Assembly: GCA_024278215.1 (NCBI GenBank)
Contig: JAJRTR010000081.1
Coordinates: forward strand, 1-18,525
Direction of reading: 5' to 3'
From: a bacterium
GTDB taxonomy: Bacteria; UBP15; UBA6099; JAJRTR01
Length of the DNA: 18,525 nucleotides
Shown here: positions 3,439-17,461 of the stretch, piece after piece
How positions within the stretch are numbered: position 1 is the stretch's first letter
How the letters are laid out: every line of letters begins with the position of its first letter
Position numbers and translations under genes: made by a program
The notes under the pieces: model-generated
Told to the model about the DNA's origin: nothing
Seen by the model: only the letters and a program-made list of their open reading frames with translations
Database searches by the model: none

Positions 3439-3861
3439 TTGAACTTTTCAGGAATAACCAGTCCGCTCGGAGCACCTAAGGAAACAACCGGTGATACATT
3501 TGCCGGAGAGCTCAAAAACCGCCTGGGCAACATACACACGCCGGACGCCGCGTCGGCGAAAGAAATGAAACAGCTCAAAGAGGCTGTCCAGGGTTTCGAA
3601 TCCTATTTCCTCTACATTCTAATGAAGGAAATGCGAAAAACTGTACCGGAAACAGGATTTATCAACGGTGGAAACGCCGAAAAGATTTTCAGGGACCAAC
3701 TCGACCAGGAACTGACTATACAGATGGCGAAAGCTCCGGGCGGTATCGGTATCGGAAAGATGCTCTACGATCAGCTCGCAAAACCCATGCTGAAACCCAC
3801 CGCGACGGCGGACGTCTCCACGACACCGATACAGGGAGACTCGCTGCCGCTCCGGCGATGA
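3439..3861 (+). CDS. flgJ: Rod-binding protein FlgJ, N-terminal domain only
   Basis: This is the rod-cap domain of FlgJ, which helps the rod assemble. From TTG 3439 it is 140 residues. The conserved core (from EMKQLKEAVQGFESYFLYIL through MKEMRKTVPETG, NGGNAEKIFRDQLDQELT and GGIGIGKMLYDQL) matches the rod-binding family. The C-terminal muramidase domain of the gammaproteobacterial protein (about 313 aa) is absent, and a short Pro/Thr-rich tail follows instead. TTG is preferred over GTG 3430 because the Shine-Dalgarno overlaps that GTG. A separate wall hydrolase must open the peptidoglycan, and none is in this window. The stop overlaps the start of the next gene in an ATGA, pointing to coupled translation. 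Confidence 0.93.
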   Translation: MNFSGITSPLGAPKETTGDTFAGELKNRLGNIHTPDAASAKEMKQLKEAVQGFESYFLYILMKEMRKTVPETGFINGGNAEKIFRDQLDQELTIQMAKAPGGIGIGKMLYDQLAKPMLKPTATADVSTTPIQGDSLPLRR

Positions 3862-5036
3862 ATATTATGGCTATAAAAGTTCTAATTCTTAAATATCTGG
3901 GCCGCGCAGCGCCTTACGTGATGGATGACTTCCACGACTATTTCAACTCATGCGGCCATGAGGCGCTATTGCTGGATTTCCCCAGAATCAAGGAGAAATG
4001 CAAAACCGGAGAGGAAAAGTCGACGATATTGTACACAACCATGCTGAATGCGCTCAGCGAGTTCAAACCCGATATGGTAATGGGCTACGGAGCAACATCG
4101 GCATTCGCACTTTCACTTCAAAGCGGCAATATCATCAACCTTGTAACTATGCTGAAGATTCCGTGCGTCTCGATATACTACGACAACCCGCTTACCCCCA
4201 GTTGCTTCGACTCTTCGCATCCACTCATGGATAGTAACCTGAGCTACTTTTTTATCTGGGACAGGCACTATGTCAATGAGTTCAAGAAACTGGGCATAGA
4301 AAAATCATATTATTGCCCCATAGCAGCCAATATAAGAAGGTTTAAGAAGTTTCCCCGAAATGATGATGACGCACAGCGGTTCGGCGCCGATGTTTCTTTC
4401 GTGGGGTCATATACCCTGAAACGCGAACTGATCCTGCGCCCGCTGCTCGACGCCGGGCTCGACCTCGTTATCTGGGGTTACGACTGGGATAAAGCGGCCG
4501 ACCCCCGCTTCCGTGCCGCCAACCGCGGCGTGGCCGACAACCAGACGGAACTGGTCAAAGTATACAACTACAGCAAAGTGAACATAAACATAACAGTGGA
4601 CCAGGGCATATCGAGCCTCAACATGCGGGTCTTCGACTGCATAGCGTCCGGCGGATTCCTCGTCTCGGACTACAAAAGCGATTTCGACGAACTGTTCGAC
4701 AAAGACGAAGTTGTAACATACAAAAGGAACACGGAATTGCCCGGCATCGTGAAATATTACCTCGAACACGAAGACGAAAGAATCGCAATGGCAAGAAAAG
4801 CACGGAAAAAAGTGCTGGCTGAACACAATTACGCCAAAAGAGTCGAATTTATAGTAAAAACAATGGAAGAAGAAGGCGCTTTCGACGGTGGAAAATGGTG
4901 GCGGAAACTTGGACCCGTAAATGAAGCGCTTTCACAGATTTTCACACTGGTTCCGTCAGGAGCAGAAGCTACAGAAGACGAACCTTCAAAGCTTGAGATA
5001 GAAGAAAATGAATATGAGGAGTCAGTCTCTCAATGA
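3858..5036 (+). CDS. CgeB-type glycosyltransferase inside the flagellar operon
   Basis: The 392-residue protein looks like a family-1-type glycosyltransferase of the CgeB group, with two Rossmann-like halves. The N-terminal half starts IKVLILKYLGRAAPYVMDDF and contains KPDMVMGYGA and IPCVSIYYDNP. The C-terminal half has the typical ADVSFVGSYTLKRELIL, then LVIWGYDW, then NMRVFDCIASGGFLVSDY (from residue 255) with an acidic FDELFDKDEVVTY stretch and a closing HNYAKRVEF segment. There is no signal peptide, so it is cytoplasmic. It overlaps flgJ and the flgN-like gene by ATGA junctions at both ends, so it is co-translated with flagellar genes. Flagellin or a flagellar export substrate is the likely acceptor, but donor and acceptor cannot be read from sequence. 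A start at ATG 3867 is also possible. Confidence 0.85.
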   Translation: MNIMAIKVLILKYLGRAAPYVMDDFHDYFNSCGHEALLLDFPRIKEKCKTGEEKSTILYTTMLNALSEFKPDMVMGYGATSAFALSLQSGNIINLVTMLKIPCVSIYYDNPLTPSCFDSSHPLMDSNLSYFFIWDRHYVNEFKKLGIEKSYYCPIAANIRRFKKFPRNDDDAQRFGADVSFVGSYTLKRELILRPLLDAGLDLVIWGYDWDKAADPRFRAANRGVADNQTELVKVYNYSKVNINITVDQGISSLNMRVFDCIASGGFLVSDYKSDFDELFDKDEVVTYKRNTELPGIVKYYLEHEDERIAMARKARKKVLAEHNYAKRVEFIVKTMEEEGAFDGGKWWRKLGPVNEALSQIFTLVPSGAEATEDEPSKLEIEENEYEESVSQ

Positions 5037-10851: not shown

Positions 10852-11712
10852 ATGTCAATTACTAGGATTAATACCAATGTCGAAGCCTTAATGGCTGGCA
10901 ACAACCTGAGGAAACTCGAGTTCAATATGAACCGGACGATGAATCGTCTTTCAACCGGTCTGCGGATCAACACCGCGGCTGATGATCCGTCCGGAATGGG
11001 AATTGCGAATTCCTTCAAATCTCAGCTTTCCGGCATAAGAGCGGCGACACAGAACGCCGAAGATACTCTCTCGATGATGAACATCGTCGATACTACTCTA
11101 TCAGAAATTTCGGACATTATGATCCGGATGAGAGATCTGGCCGTTCGCGCCGCAACGGACGCGACAGTCACAACAACGCAACGTGCCAACATGGAGTCTG
11201 AAGTAGTAAGTCTCAAAGCGGAGATCACACGCAAACAGGGCGCAATTTCGTTTAACTCGAAGGTTCTGTTCAACGGCTCATTGAGCGGTGGTACGGCTAC
11301 AGCGCAGGTTCAACTCGGGCCGGACAACATTGCTGCACAAAGGTTCAGCATAAACATCCCGACTCTGACGGCCACAGGTATTGGCGGTGGAATGAGCTTT
11401 AACAACGGCATGCACATCAGTCAGTCCACAAGTGCTCAAGTCGCCATCGATATCATGAACAGCGCCATCTCCAGTCTCGGTACGACAATGACCGCGATCG
11501 GCTCGATGGAACAGGAGATCGAACGCAAGATCACCGAACTCCAGGCCACAGAAGTCAACACTGCTGCCGCCCTCTCCCGCGTACAAGATGCGGATATGGC
11601 CGGCGAAATCACAGAATTCGCCAAGCAGCAGATCATGTCTCAGGCTGCCACAGCTATGATAGCACAGGCAAATGCACAGCCCCAGTCTATACTCACGTTA
11701 CTTGGAGCATAA
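10852..11712 (+). CDS. fliC: Flagellin (filament protein)
   Basis: This is the filament subunit. The 286-residue protein has the N-terminal D0/D1 signature (SITRINTNVEALMAGNNL, then MNRTMNRLSTGLRINTAADD and DPSGMGIANSFKSQLSGI) and the matching C-terminal coil (ELQATEVNTAAALSRVQDAD, then FAKQQIMSQAATAMIAQANA). The central part (about residues 135-200) is a small Gly/Thr/Ser-rich insert, so the exposed D2/D3 domains are minimal. The last residues are SILTLLGA, lacking the usual Leu-Arg end. It is the only flagellin here and ends at a strong terminator. Translation is probably governed by the FliW-CsrA pair, given the GGA sites upstream. Bacillus would call it hag. Confidence 0.97.
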   Translation: MSITRINTNVEALMAGNNLRKLEFNMNRTMNRLSTGLRINTAADDPSGMGIANSFKSQLSGIRAATQNAEDTLSMMNIVDTTLSEISDIMIRMRDLAVRAATDATVTTTQRANMESEVVSLKAEITRKQGAISFNSKVLFNGSLSGGTATAQVQLGPDNIAAQRFSINIPTLTATGIGGGMSFNNGMHISQSTSAQVAIDIMNSAISSLGTTMTAIGSMEQEIERKITELQATEVNTAAALSRVQDADMAGEITEFAKQQIMSQAATAMIAQANAQPQSILTLLGA

Positions 11713-11896: not shown

Positions 11897-14800
11897 TCAG
11901 AAGTCGGCCCTGAATGTGCTTTCAAACAGGTGGCCGGTGTAATCACGGTCGTTGTCATCCGCTTTTCGGAATCTCGACATCCTGTAAAACAGGTTCAGTG
12001 AAATAATTTCAGTTAGTTTCAACTCGGAGCCGAGTTCGAGCGCCGAGTTGTCTTCGTTCAGGCTTCCGCTCCTGGAGACCTTCTGAAATGAAAACCACTG
12101 CGACAATTTTTCGCTAGGGATTCTGCCAATGCGTGTATTTATGGTATTTGTGTCATAACCGGAGGACCTCGACGATGAGTACGACTCGTTTTTCAGTTGC
12201 GCCGAGTAGTTCCATACGGGGCTCGGATTGTAACCGGCGACAATATTCCAGTTTTTGTTCGACGATGTGCTGTTTCCACTCAGATTGAACGTGTCCCGGT
12301 CGCTCCTGACGAGTGTGAAGGTGAGGTGATAGGGTCTGCCCGGCGGTCTGTAGTCGAATTTATAACGCTTTATTTTACTCTCGGTGCGCGAGTCGTCGCC
12401 GGTGAAAGAATCAGACACTGTAAATATCGGCATAAAAGTGAGGGCTTTGGTAAGGGCATAGCCGAATGTGTATGTCTCGGTTTTCGAACCGGACGACGGG
12501 CCTGTGATGCTTGGCCGGTCCTGTTGACTGTAACTGTATGAAAGCGCCTGTACTCTTCCGGTCGGCCTGGTGCTGATGGAAACTCTTGACGAATGAATAA
12601 CGCGATCATTCACAGCCGGTCTCGTGTCGCTCGTGTTCTGATCGTCGATGTCCACTTTCACCATGACCATTTCGTGCGGTCGCCAGCCGACACCTATCTT
12701 CTGCGACCTGTTCGTATTCGTATATGTCTCACCGCCGCTCGCCGTTTCGGTTTTACTTGTATCGAACATTGTTGTGAGCTTGAGATTCTTCGTCGGGCTG
12801 TAGTTGAATCCGATCTTTCTGCTCGTGTTTTTGCGCCCTGTATTTGTCTTCACATTATCGGTCTGTTTCATGCCGGTATAACCGATAGTCAGGTCGGCTT
12901 TTTTCAGCATCGGCACAGGGATCGCCGCATTGAGCCCTTTCTTTGTTTCCGATGTATCCGCCCTGCGAGGCGAATAGTCGTCGAACCGGTCTCTCGTTTC
13001 ATAAGTTACCGCAAGCGTTTTGAAGAAGGAATTGCTGAACGTCAGTTTATGTTTCTGCTGTTTTGATCTTGTATTGTGAAGTTCGAAAAGGTCCTGCGCG
13101 GTATCGACATCGACATAATCGGACTTGAGTGTCAGGTTGCTGAGAATCTTCCGGCTGATCCCGATAGTGAGTTTACCTGTTTCGAGATTGCTCTCGCCAC
13201 CGATGGGCGTAAAGAATGTGTCGCCGTTCCACACGCTGAGGTTCACGCTGGTTTTACTTCCACTGTATGCCGCGTTCATCTGAACGACATTCCCGCTCTC
13301 GACACCGATAAACGGGGGATAATACTGGTAGTCCGCGAGAATCACTGTGCCGGCCGGAATCAGAACCCGCATCGTCACCCTGCCCTGCGTGACCTCCAGA
13401 CTATAATCTGTGTTGAGTCTCAGGACAGAGTCGTCGGCAAGCCTGTCGTCGAAATACAGGATCACCGTGCCTGGCACAATATCCTGCTGACCGAGGTCGA
13501 ATGTGCAGGCCGCGGTATTGCCGGCCTCGGGAGTGCAGTCCAGGTCCGCCGACGCCGCATCACGAACCACTATATTCAAGTTGTTAATCGGTTTGGCCGA
13601 TATATCCGCATCGCTTCTTGCCGCCTCCAGCGCCACTTTCACTTTACCGCCGGGCTTAAACTCCATCCTGAAATCATCTACCGTATGATCGTAATCAGAT
13701 TCAAGCAGCGTGTCCGACGGATAAGAATACGCGTCGATACGGAGGTAATCATAAGTCTGGAATTCCGTGCTCGCGGCGTCGATGAACTCGACTCTGTTAA
13801 AATCCTCGTCGACTATGTAGTCAACACCGCGCGTTTTCTGAACACATAAGTTCAGGTCCTCGTCGGTACAGAAATAAACTTTTTCGGAGCCGTAATAAAT
13901 CGTACCGCTCATCTTTGTTGAATCGGGATAGGCGTAAGGTTGTCCGGATTCGTCATGAAAGAGGTTCACTTTCGTGTTGTATTCAGTGACTTCGCTCGGA
14001 TAGTAGAAATAAGTGATCCTGAAGGCGTCGCTTGCAGAGGATGTCGGCTCGGCGAGGAGAAACTCGAAGTTTGCATAATATTCCGCGATTTTTGCATTGC
14101 CGAGCAGAAAATTCGTGTCTCCCAACTCGGATAACATGTTATAATCCTGATTCGCTTCCAGCGTCACCCCGTTCTCGGTAATTATCTCGGAATCCTTTAC
14201 TATCAGGTCGCCGCTTTCGAGCCCGACAGACAATATCCTGGAGGAATCGAGCCCCGGTATCTCCTCCACAACTTTTTCACGCAGTTTCTGTGTCGACCTG
14301 TTCGCTGCCTTCACAAGATGCGAATAACCGTAAGACCACTTTCCGCTCCTCGTCTTCCTGTCGACGGCAAGACCTTTCAAGTCGCCCTCACTCAGCGAAC
14401 CGGTCAATCGTTGTTCATAAGTAATCGTTACAATATCGGTCGGCCCGAGAATATCGAGAAAAGAAATCTCACCGAGAAACTCGTCAAGAATATATTCATT
14501 AGCCGGAAGCACCCTGTCGTTGAGTTTGACGGCAGCTTTGTCTGCTATAATGTCTCTTGCGTTCAGATCATACGGGCCCTTGATATTCCTTCCCGTGAAG
14601 GAAGTTGTGCGCGTCTGGCTCTCGGACTTCGACATGAGAAACATAATATTGGTAAGGTCCGTGCTGTAATCGACCTGAAATCCGTTTGTCTTCTTTGCAA
14701 AAGGAGATAGTCTTCCGCCTTCAAACTTCGCCGTAAAGTCTCCATAAGTCGCACCGTAGTGACTGTGCTCCATGCGAAACATCATGTCACGATCCTGTCT

Positions 14801-17461
14801 CGGCATTTCATAAAATCTTCCGGAAAGTTTCGTATTGTCGCCAACTTCAGCGAATACGGAAAGATTAGTGCCCTGCTCAATACTTTCGGACTGGTGGGTT
14901 AATCCCTCGCGCGACAGAAACTCGCTCTCGCTACCGCCGGCTGCAAAAGTCCTGTACTTCAGATACCGGAAACCGGAAAGTGTAATATTATCATTTTTTT
15001 CTTTTTTAATTTTTGTGCCTGTGTTGTCGACAATCGAAGGGGAAGCGGGTGTTTGCGCCGCTGCTGCCAAAGGCAGAGTTGCTGTTGCGGATTCGGGCTT
15101 GGATTCTGGTGCCTGTGCAGGTGCGGGTCGAGTCGCTGTTTCATTCACAGTTGCAGATTCCTCAACTGTCTTTTTCGCTGTCGTCGCTTTCTTTTCAGGA
15201 GCAGGCGAAATCGGTTTTTGTGCTTTCTTAGTGAAAACAGATTCCTCATTTGCCGCCAGTGGGCCTGCCTCGGCAGTGGTTGTTTCAGGGGTATTTACAT
15301 CAGTTGTTTTTTCAACTTTTCTTTCTTTTGCGTACTCCTTATTCTCATCTGCGGTTTCGGACGGTGAAACTTTTCGCGGCGTTAATTCAGTTTTTTTTTC
15401 AACCGGCTGCTGTTGCTTTTCAGCGTCCTGCTTCTGTTCCTTCTTTTCCTCCGCAGGTTCCGTAGAAAAATGTTTTTCATACCATCGAAGGCCGGAATCA
15501 GGTGTCTTTCCCTCGACCGGTGTTTTCGGTGCTGTTTTCTCAGACTTTTCCTTACCCGCCATGTCGATGTCGTATATCAGCCATTCGATGCGTTCCTGAA
15601 AATCAAGTCCCTGCCTGTCCTCTCCCTGTTCAATTTCCTTTTCGCCGCCGAGTTCGCCGATCAGCCTGTCAACAGGACTTTCTTCCTGCTCTTCGCTTTC
15701 CTGTTTCTTGTCGTCCCCCGTAGCTTCCTCAACTTTTTTGTCAACCTTTTTCCTCACGACTTTCTTTTCCGGATTCTTTTTCTTCGCAGTCGTGGCGGGA
15801 ACGGCTTTTCGGAGTTCCTCTTTCTTCGCTGCCGGTGGAGTGTCCGCCTTTTTCTGTTCCGCATTTTTCGGTAACGGAGCAGGGGCGGCTTTTTCCGATT
15901 CAACTTTTTTCGCAGGAGGCAGCTTTTCAACTTTCTTAATTTCCGTCTTTTTAACGGGTGCGCGAGCGGCGGATTTCTTCCGCCTCTGTGATGTCTGCGC
16001 CTTTGTTGTTTTCGTAGTTTCAGTGATCTTTTCCGGTTCAGGCTCCTTTTTCTCCTGCACGGCAACTTTCGATGTCGTCTCTATCTCGATACTTGTTTTT
16101 TCAGTCTGCTGCCTTTTTACACCGTGCTTTGTTGCAGTCCGTTTTTTCACAGGAACCGGTACGCTTTCCTTTGCCGATGTTTCCTGTTTTTTTTCAGGAC
16201 TCTTTTCCACTTGCTCGATCTCTTGTTGTTTTTCAACCACAGACCGGGTTTCACTGCGCGGCAGAGCTTTCGTTTTTTCCGGCTTTTTTTGCGGCTCGAC
16301 CTTCTTTGTCGGCGCCTTCTTTTCTTCCGTTATCTCTTTATTCAGTTCCGAAGCGGCTTCCACTTTCTTTTTCTTTACAGGCTTCTTTTTTGTTTCAGTT
16401 TGTTGAGGCGGCGGCGGGCCTGGAACGGATTCGTCTTTAACATCGAGTTCATCCAGCAGCCTGTCCACACGCGGGAATTCTATACCCAACTCTTCAGCCG
16501 TCACATGAGGCGCTTCGTCGGATAGAAGCCTCTTTTCTTTTTTTACAACAGGTTTCGGGGCGGGCAAGTCTTTGTTTTTTACGACTGAATCAGGTTTCGG
16601 GGCCAGGGCGGGCTTAACAGCTTTTTTCACAACAGGAACCGCCTTCGGGATTGCCTTCGCGGGCTCTGACTTCTTTAGCCCTTTTTCTGTTTTCTTTTTC
16701 GATGGAGTTTCCTGTTTCTTCGGTTCAACTGTCTGAACAGTTCTGTTCGGCGGGGTCTTTTTTTTATGCTCGGTTTTTGCCGCGGCTTTGTTGACTACTG
16801 TTTTCGCTGGTGTTATTTTCTTCTTATCGCTTTGTTTTGCCTTTTTACCGGAAGGCTTCTTTTCGAGCACTTTCTTCGCTTTTTTCGTCTCGGATTTTTT
16901 TGCAAGTGTTTTCTTCGGTTGTTTTTTCTGTTTTTTCGGTGCGGCGTCTTTTTCGGAGCCACTTTTCCATTTATGTTCTTCTGCTTTTTCCTGCTCTTCT
17001 TTCTGCTGTTTCGCGATCTGTTCTTTCGCCGCGTCGAGCCAGGTTCTTGTTTTCCTCTTCTTCCACATTTTCTTAACAGCGTCATCAAGGCTCTGAAGAA
17101 GCTTGTCGACTTTCGGGAACTCGACATTGAGTTCTTTCGCAGTGTCGCCGGCGACAGAGTAGTCCACTTCGGGCTCGGCGGGTTTCTCTTCCGGTTCTTC
17201 CGCCGGAGAAGGAATAACTTCATCGAGGACATCTACAAGGTCGTCCACTTTATCGTCGAATGTTTCATCACCGACTGTACCCGCGTTAAGAGCATCGTCG
17301 ATTATTCCGATAAGTTCCTCGTAATCGACTTTCCGTTTATCTTTTTCGTAGTGTATTTTCGGTTTCACCGGCGCACCGGGCACATCGGCATACACAAAAA
17401 AACAGTCCAGATATAATATTGTTGCTATAATGAGAATTGATAGAAGTAAGTATTTACGCAT
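11897..17461 (-). CDS. Giant secreted protein: Lys/Pro/Glu-rich spacer plus outer-membrane beta-barrel
   Basis: I do not recognise this 1854-residue protein as a named family. It starts with a hydrophobic signal or anchor (MRKYLLLSILIIATILYLDC, then FFVYADVPG; LYLDC is not a good lipobox). Residues about 30-820 are low-complexity, rich in Lys, Glu, Pro, Ala and Thr, and probably unfolded. Within them the motif VD-x-L-[LIV]-x-x-L recurs at residues 72, 118, 332 and 597. From about residue 825 it turns into alternating-hydrophobic beta-strands with many aromatic and Thr/Ser residues, and it ends FESTFRADF, with the terminal Phe typical of outer-membrane barrels. Several segments repeat a pattern of the kind seen in SprA-like translocons. 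A periplasm-spanning outer-membrane protein is the best inference. There is no direct tie to flagella. Confidence 0.75.
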   Translation of the reverse strand: MRKYLLLSILIIATILYLDCFFVYADVPGAPVKPKIHYEKDKRKVDYEELIGIIDDALNAGTVGDETFDDKVDDLVDVLDEVIPSPAEEPEEKPAEPEVDYSVAGDTAKELNVEFPKVDKLLQSLDDAVKKMWKKRKTRTWLDAAKEQIAKQQKEEQEKAEEHKWKSGSEKDAAPKKQKKQPKKTLAKKSETKKAKKVLEKKPSGKKAKQSDKKKITPAKTVVNKAAAKTEHKKKTPPNRTVQTVEPKKQETPSKKKTEKGLKKSEPAKAIPKAVPVVKKAVKPALAPKPDSVVKNKDLPAPKPVVKKEKRLLSDEAPHVTAEELGIEFPRVDRLLDELDVKDESVPGPPPPQQTETKKKPVKKKKVEAASELNKEITEEKKAPTKKVEPQKKPEKTKALPRSETRSVVEKQQEIEQVEKSPEKKQETSAKESVPVPVKKRTATKHGVKRQQTEKTSIEIETTSKVAVQEKKEPEPEKITETTKTTKAQTSQRRKKSAARAPVKKTEIKKVEKLPPAKKVESEKAAPAPLPKNAEQKKADTPPAAKKEELRKAVPATTAKKKNPEKKVVRKKVDKKVEEATGDDKKQESEEQEESPVDRLIGELGGEKEIEQGEDRQGLDFQERIEWLIYDIDMAGKEKSEKTAPKTPVEGKTPDSGLRWYEKHFSTEPAEEKKEQKQDAEKQQQPVEKKTELTPRKVSPSETADENKEYAKERKVEKTTDVNTPETTTAEAGPLAANEESVFTKKAQKPISPAPEKKATTAKKTVEESATVNETATRPAPAQAPESKPESATATLPLAAAAQTPASPSIVDNTGTKIKKEKNDNITLSGFRYLKYRTFAAGGSESEFLSREGLTHQSESIEQGTNLSVFAEVGDNTKLSGRFYEMPRQDRDMMFRMEHSHYGATYGDFTAKFEGGRLSPFAKKTNGFQVDYSTDLTNIMFLMSKSESQTRTTSFTGRNIKGPYDLNARDIIADKAAVKLNDRVLPANEYILDEFLGEISFLDILGPTDIVTITYEQRLTGSLSEGDLKGLAVDRKTRSGKWSYGYSHLVKAANRSTQKLREKVVEEIPGLDSSRILSVGLESGDLIVKDSEIITENGVTLEANQDYNMLSELGDTNFLLGNAKIAEYYANFEFLLAEPTSSASDAFRITYFYYPSEVTEYNTKVNLFHDESGQPYAYPDSTKMSGTIYYGSEKVYFCTDEDLNLCVQKTRGVDYIVDEDFNRVEFIDAASTEFQTYDYLRIDAYSYPSDTLLESDYDHTVDDFRMEFKPGGKVKVALEAARSDADISAKPINNLNIVVRDAASADLDCTPEAGNTAACTFDLGQQDIVPGTVILYFDDRLADDSVLRLNTDYSLEVTQGRVTMRVLIPAGTVILADYQYYPPFIGVESGNVVQMNAAYSGSKTSVNLSVWNGDTFFTPIGGESNLETGKLTIGISRKILSNLTLKSDYVDVDTAQDLFELHNTRSKQQKHKLTFSNSFFKTLAVTYETRDRFDDYSPRRADTSETKKGLNAAIPVPMLKKADLTIGYTGMKQTDNVKTNTGRKNTSRKIGFNYSPTKNLKLTTMFDTSKTETASGGETYTNTNRSQKIGVGWRPHEMVMVKVDIDDQNTSDTRPAVNDRVIHSSRVSISTRPTGRVQALSYSYSQQDRPSITGPSSGSKTETYTFGYALTKALTFMPIFTVSDSFTGDDSRTESKIKRYKFDYRPPGRPYHLTFTLVRSDRDTFNLSGNSTSSNKNWNIVAGYNPSPVWNYSAQLKNESYSSSRSSGYDTNTINTRIGRIPSEKLSQWFSFQKVSRSGSLNEDNSALELGSELKLTEIISLNLFYRMSRFRKADDNDRDYTGHLFESTFRADF

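Follow-up and report, generated by a model that had tools for sequence, protein, structure and literature searches.

The window analyzed here, an 18,525-nucleotide stretch that forms the whole of one contig (C51) of a 4.5-Mb draft genome of UBP15, an uncultured lineage, encodes a giant protein in which a long disordered segment precedes a very large outer-membrane barrel. What does such a barrel do, and what is the segment ahead of it for? We propose, with a probability of roughly 0.55, that the protein is a compact translocon of the SprA/Sov type and that its spacer acts as a periplasmic docking arm, a reading in which we infer transport, cargo, docking, and the identity of the partners.

Gene and protein anatomy

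The gene (positions 11897 to 17461, minus strand) is a single intact open reading frame with an ATG start and no internal stops. Its product of 1,854 amino acids consists of a signal peptide, a Lys-rich disordered spacer of about 800 residues, and a barrel of 1,029 residues. The hydrophobic N terminus, residues 1 to 26 (17384 to 17461, minus strand), reads MRKYLLLSILIIATILYLDCFFVYA|DVPG and ends in a signal peptidase I-type site (VYA|D). Signal peptides also start the orthologues and paralogues, and the complete family members that were read have N termini of the same cleavable form. Judged by sequence, residues 1 to 26 therefore look like a cleavable Sec signal peptide rather than a retained inner-membrane anchor, of which we see no sign here or in these relatives. 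In the spacer (residues 27 to about 820; 15002 to 17383, minus strand), Lys, Glu, Ala, and Pro account for 19.8%, 13.4%, 9.9%, and 9.1% of the residues, respectively, and 17% are hydrophobic; spacer length and charge vary in the family. The barrel (residues 826 to 1854; 11900 to 14986, minus strand) ends in a terminal Phe. The layout given in a preliminary description of this DNA, a hydrophobic N terminus followed by some 800 residues of spacer and a giant barrel, is borne out by the reading frame, the composition, and the AlphaFold2 model, and the barrel start that it placed at residue 820 falls within about 5 residues of the onset of paralogue homology.

The gene and a flagellin gene that closes a flagellar cluster are transcribed toward each other. 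A shared operon with the flagellin gene is ruled out by this convergence and by the differing neighbors of the orthologues. The upstream neighbor on the same strand is a sigma-54 activator gene, cut by the contig end; candidate sigma-54 promoter matches upstream of the barrel gene occur at chance level. Within the flagellar cluster, between a FlgJ-like rod-binding gene and flgN, a CgeB/Glyco_trans_1_2-type glycosyltransferase gene (window positions 3858 to 5036) is a candidate for flagellin glycosylation.

A barrel family in UBP15

Searches of Pfam, NCBIfam, and PDB sequences with the whole protein returned no match (in Pfam and NCBIfam even at an E value of 1), and with the family profile as query, the PDB yielded nothing above noise. 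Relatives were found in a UBP15/UBA6099 sample of seven genomes, comprising the genome of the window and six others of the same order (G000 to G006): the former encodes three more full-length paralogues and a weak one, and each of the latter has 4 to 7 family matches. Homology is limited to the last ~1,030 residues of the protein, and 40 columns, the terminal Phe among them, are invariant across 20 aligned barrels. Weak DUF2460 matches in 18 of 20 relatives were read as a common strand motif (DYxxDxxxGxIxF) and not as phage homology. In the barrel tree, the first branch is a third-family homologue (G002) with about 70 residues ahead of its barrel, and the window gene is grouped with four long-spacer genes and with near-spacerless paralogues of 1,111 residues. 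One no-spacer paralogue (G006; L047, around position 11203) carries an in-frame TGA and may be a pseudogene or reflect a sequencing error. Separately, all UBP15 genomes encode a roughly single-copy protein of 1,390 to 1,680 residues (as in L038, 5800 to 10782) that matches the barrel family over about 190 residues only.

Predicted fold and sequence relation to SprA

The structure prediction of the barrel part, proposed as a check in the preliminary description, was run with 23 family barrels as AlphaFold2 input; it modeled residues 826 to 1854 with a mean pLDDT of 78 and a pTM of 0.51. An independent model of a PorV-linked paralogue (G004:C52) reached 78 and 0.54. When the window barrel was compared with the PDB by Foldseek, SprA translocon chains (6h3i, 8gl6, 8gl8, and 6h3j) took ranks 1 to 4 with E values of 1.2e-14 to 3.1e-12, and the first non-SprA match followed at 5.7e-9; the same four chains came out on top for the paralogue. 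VIA-align superposed the window barrel on 6h3i over 645 residues (Z 16.9, rmsd 6.8) and the paralogue over 725 residues (Z 20.1, rmsd 5.1), spanning SprA residues 132 to 2401. Other barrels aligned with the window barrel over about 270 to 430 residues, with rmsd values of 10 to 17 and similar Z scores. Indeed, middling Z scores are frequent among large barrels, Mtr and AlgE scoring alike over shorter alignments. That the barrel has the SprA giant-barrel fold is, as far as predicted models go, well supported. Both models contain 44 strands of at least 7 residues; at pTM values of 0.51 to 0.54, the strand count and the pore shape are uncertain, and since the 44 strands include those of the module described below, we make no claim that the barrel exceeds 36 strands. 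The statement that no named system has this form thus holds for family models and PDB sequences and does not hold for the predicted fold, which resembles that of SprA/Sov, the translocon of the type IX secretion system (T9SS).

A sequence relation accompanies the structural one. Residues 953 to 1061 (14279 to 14605, minus strand; FxGRNIxGPYxLNAxxI..V.LN....EYxLDxFxGxISF) form a module shared with SprA: hhalign, run with the family profile against five genuine SprA proteins, gave a probability of 97.8 and an E value of 9.7e-13 over 108 columns, and the sequence homology is confined to these ~108 residues. The family profile found this module of about 100 residues in 112 of 386 genomes (~30%), mostly in proteins of about 850 to 1,230 residues and also in proteins of 1,700 to 2,300 residues. 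Of the long proteins, three were scanned with Pfam and each of them carried SprA_N, and one was scanned with NCBIfam and matched TIGR04189 at an E value of 3.5e-195. None of the seven UBP15 genomes, in contrast, exceeds the curated TIGR04189 cut-off of 200 bits, the best score being 34.9 bits and falling on the module only, whereas all three positive-control genomes pass it with about 625 to 775 bits. SprA_N (PF14349), whose model detects the true SprA of other genomes, was not found in the protein or in the UBP15 genomes. We therefore place the protein outside the SprA family as defined, as a relative by fold and module, and on the evidence of these profiles all seven UBP15 genomes lack a true SprA. 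A literature search on SprA outside Bacteroidota yielded nothing usable.

Genomic company and the proposed function of the barrel

All seven UBP15 genomes encode PorV-family proteins above the cut-off, and most of their PorV genes have a T9SS-like C-terminal domain (CTD) gene directly upstream. The order CTD protein-PorV-barrel occurs in G001:C45, G004:C52, and G006:C584, and the order PorV-barrel in G002:C40; in four genomes, the gene immediately ahead of the no-spacer sister paralogue encodes a protein with a FlgD_ig/T9SS-like tail. Looking at the neighbors of homologues, as the preliminary description had suggested, hence links some paralogues to PorV and CTD genes, but none adjoins the window gene or its spacer-bearing orthologues. 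Since, in addition, the CTD-like tails score under the curated T9SS cut-offs, translocation by this particular member is an argument from its family.

In the mechanism that we propose, the signal peptide would be cut off during export by Sec. Of the remaining chain, the last 1,029 residues would insert in the outer membrane and form a barrel of very large width, and the N-terminal segment of about 800 residues would stay behind in the periplasm, where it would serve as a disordered arm. Most likely, this barrel would translocate proteins, acting as a pore for cargo that carries type IX-like C-terminal domains and having PorV-family carriers beside it; the lack of a true SprA in UBP15 and the encoding of paralogues with PorV and CTD partners argue for this role. 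Alternatively, the SprA fold could do a different job, as a pore or exporter for nutrients, polysaccharide, or lipid, with the arm a mere tether. The comparable Z scores of MtrB, AlgE, and TonB-dependent receptors would fit such a function, as would the absence of a PorV neighbor at the window gene and the 4 to 7 divergent copies per genome, a pattern of substrate-specific transporters. We nevertheless consider it rather improbable, because SprA leads in both Foldseek E value and aligned length for two independent models, paralogues sit with PorV and CTD genes, and the protein matches neither the plug (PF07715) nor the barrel (PF00593) of TonB-dependent transporters nor any porin family, even at a Pfam E value of 1.

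For the translocon reading, the accessory components are of interest as well. GldM and GldL were not detected in UBP15; GldL was likewise missed in three SprA-positive genomes, so that its non-detection is no proof that a motor is absent. Every UBP15 genome has at least two Skp-like genes, which is compatible with a docking arm and not specific to it. Large secreted proteins with T9SS-like tails (frames of up to 3,880 residues) are also encoded with PorV-family genes in G000 to G006, in several pairs per genome.

The N-terminal arm

Orthologues with a long spacer occur in four other genomes; three of them are complete, with spacers of 424, 426, and 471 residues, and the fourth is cut by a contig end. 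The spacer start, residues 32 to 97 (17171 to 17368, minus strand; ELxxIIDDxL...FDDxxDxLxxxLxxxIP), is homologous in the three complete orthologues (SW z 14.2, 11.0, and 11.1; 0 of 500 shuffles). Because both the long spacer and its start are kept, sequence comparison indicates that the spacer is truly coding, and an assembly artefact is ruled out by this conserved start and by the absence of tandem repeats.

Conservation within the spacer is restricted to the first ~66 residues past the signal peptide and to a repeated motif, [IV]D-x-LL-x-x-L[DE], found at residues 118, 332, and 597 of the window protein. The candidate docking motif comprises copy 1 (residues 107 to 126, TAKELNVEFPKVDKLLQSLD; 17084 to 17143, minus strand), detected by SW alignment and pattern scan; copy 2 (residues 321 to 340, TAEELGIEFPRVDRLLDELD; 16442 to 16501, minus strand), with a z of 14.6 against copy 1; and a degenerate copy 3 (residues 595 to 605, SPVDRLIGELG; 15647 to 15679, minus strand), detected by pattern scan. 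Each complete orthologue has two copies, one of them with Q for D, and the remaining family members examined have none; the pattern was drawn up post hoc from the same sequences, so these counts are descriptive only. Short amphipathic helices of this kind within a disordered chain would be typical docking sites. In Flavobacterium johnsoniae, the disordered N terminus of SprA turns structured within a trimer of SkpA and also touches SprE; its deletion stops transport, as does the deletion of SkpA (PMC10994853). The UBP15 arm is placed like this segment, ahead of the first strand. Its conserved first 66 residues and its [IV]D-x-LL-x-x-L[DE] copies would most likely be the sites at which it catches periplasmic partners, such as a chaperone, TPR proteins, or parts of a motor, in the manner of the SprA N terminus with SkpA/SprE, and the charged body of the spacer would be a linker of variable length.

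One could also regard the spacer as a low-complexity expansion with a linker function only, the barrel alone being important. Its variable length (424 to 800 residues) and charge are in line with this, and both the nearest paralogue group (1,111 amino acids) and the basal G002 homologue manage with about 60 to 80 residues ahead of the barrel, practically without a spacer. The selective retention of the first 66 residues and of the motifs, in a spacer otherwise not kept, makes this explanation unlikely. As for its origin, we did not keep the reading that a spacer was already present in the common ancestor of all family members: the window gene lies outside both the spacer and the no-spacer groups of the sister family in the tree, which allows either that one duplicate lost it or that it was gained more than once.

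The proposal made in the preliminary description, that the protein is its own TolA-like bridge, held in the inner membrane by its N-terminal segment and binding peptidoglycan or anionic polymers through a cationic spacer, is very improbable: some 800 disordered residues would be long enough for the periplasm and the net charge here is +33 over 799 residues, but the signal peptide has a good cleavage site, the spacers of the three complete orthologues have net charges of -3, -3, and -7, so that positive charge is no family property, Pfam shows neither an SLH nor an OmpA domain in the protein, nor any further one that binds peptidoglycan, and separate SLH-domain proteins able to tether are encoded in all seven genomes. 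By its own account, that description would be refuted if the barrel matched a known transporter family and close homologues had no spacer. The barrel does match a known translocator fold and the nearest paralogue group lacks the spacer, whereas the three complete orthologues keep it, so that the refuting evidence is half there; the earlier interpretation as a whole is partly supported.

Comparison with known systems

SprA/Sov (TIGR04189; 6h3i and 8gl8) is the closest known system, sharing nearly the whole barrel in two models, the sequence module, a disordered periplasmic segment ahead of the barrel, and, for some paralogues, PorV-family neighbors. The T9SS has a single very large translocon per cell. 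The UBP15 barrels differ in size (~1,030 versus ~2,000 to 2,400 residues) and in number (4 to 7 paralogues per genome versus one SprA), in their arm of up to 800 residues, and in lacking SprA_N, a TIGR04189 score near the cut-off, and detectable GldM/GldL. TolA and TonB have similarly long periplasmic linkers rich in Lys, Ala, Glu, and Pro; theirs, however, start from an inner-membrane anchor and act upon a partner in the outer membrane, whereas here the linker follows a signal peptide and belongs to the outer-membrane barrel protein itself. OmpM/SlpA-type SLH barrels also carry an N-terminal periplasmic arm, with an SLH domain that the window protein lacks, SLH proteins being encoded by separate genes in UBP15.

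The T9SS has been reported as confined to Bacteroidetes (PMC4793230). We tentatively suggest, as a possibility of lower probability than the translocon reading itself, that UBP15 may export by a type IX-like route that has no SprA and relies on several SprA-type barrels of compact size, of which some have PorV and cargo genes dedicated to them, and that in one lineage the barrel's own arm of up to 800 residues may replace or recruit the SkpA/SprE/motor module. If so, multicopy half-size SprA-type barrels beside PorV and cargo-like genes would mean that this export principle has a wider range and is reducible; they would also give structural biology a smaller, naturally occurring version and allow the purpose of the cap, the large loops, and the N-terminal tail of SprA to be tested directly.

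The module additionally gives access to a large class of outer-membrane barrels that has no name. In other phyla, barrels with the SprA module (~1,000 to 1,200 residues) fall outside every Pfam and NCBIfam family and resemble the UBP15 barrels in size and module (hhalign 98.9% over 190 columns); they differ in that homology is found in the N-terminal fifth only, that they lack a long spacer, and that some occur alongside a true SprA. One of them (L120) differs further in its neighbors, lying downstream of an NHL-type propeller gene and adjoining an Omp85 protein gene. Genes for such barrels of ~1,100 residues in other phyla are followed immediately by an Omp85/POTRA gene; the latter is clear in L120 and L124, and its BamA/POTRA matches are weak in L122 and L121. 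Barrel and Omp85/POTRA gene, with the NHL gene in L120, apparently form a conserved, unnamed operon.

Two further observations concern cell envelope attachment. SLH-domain proteins occur in all seven UBP15 genomes and OmpA domains in three, which suggests an SLH-type tethering of the outer membrane in UBP15. SLH-type cell walls require pyruvylation, and in another phylum a polysaccharide pyruvyl transferase gene (L118, 6034 to 7101) lies directly ahead of a SprA-module barrel.
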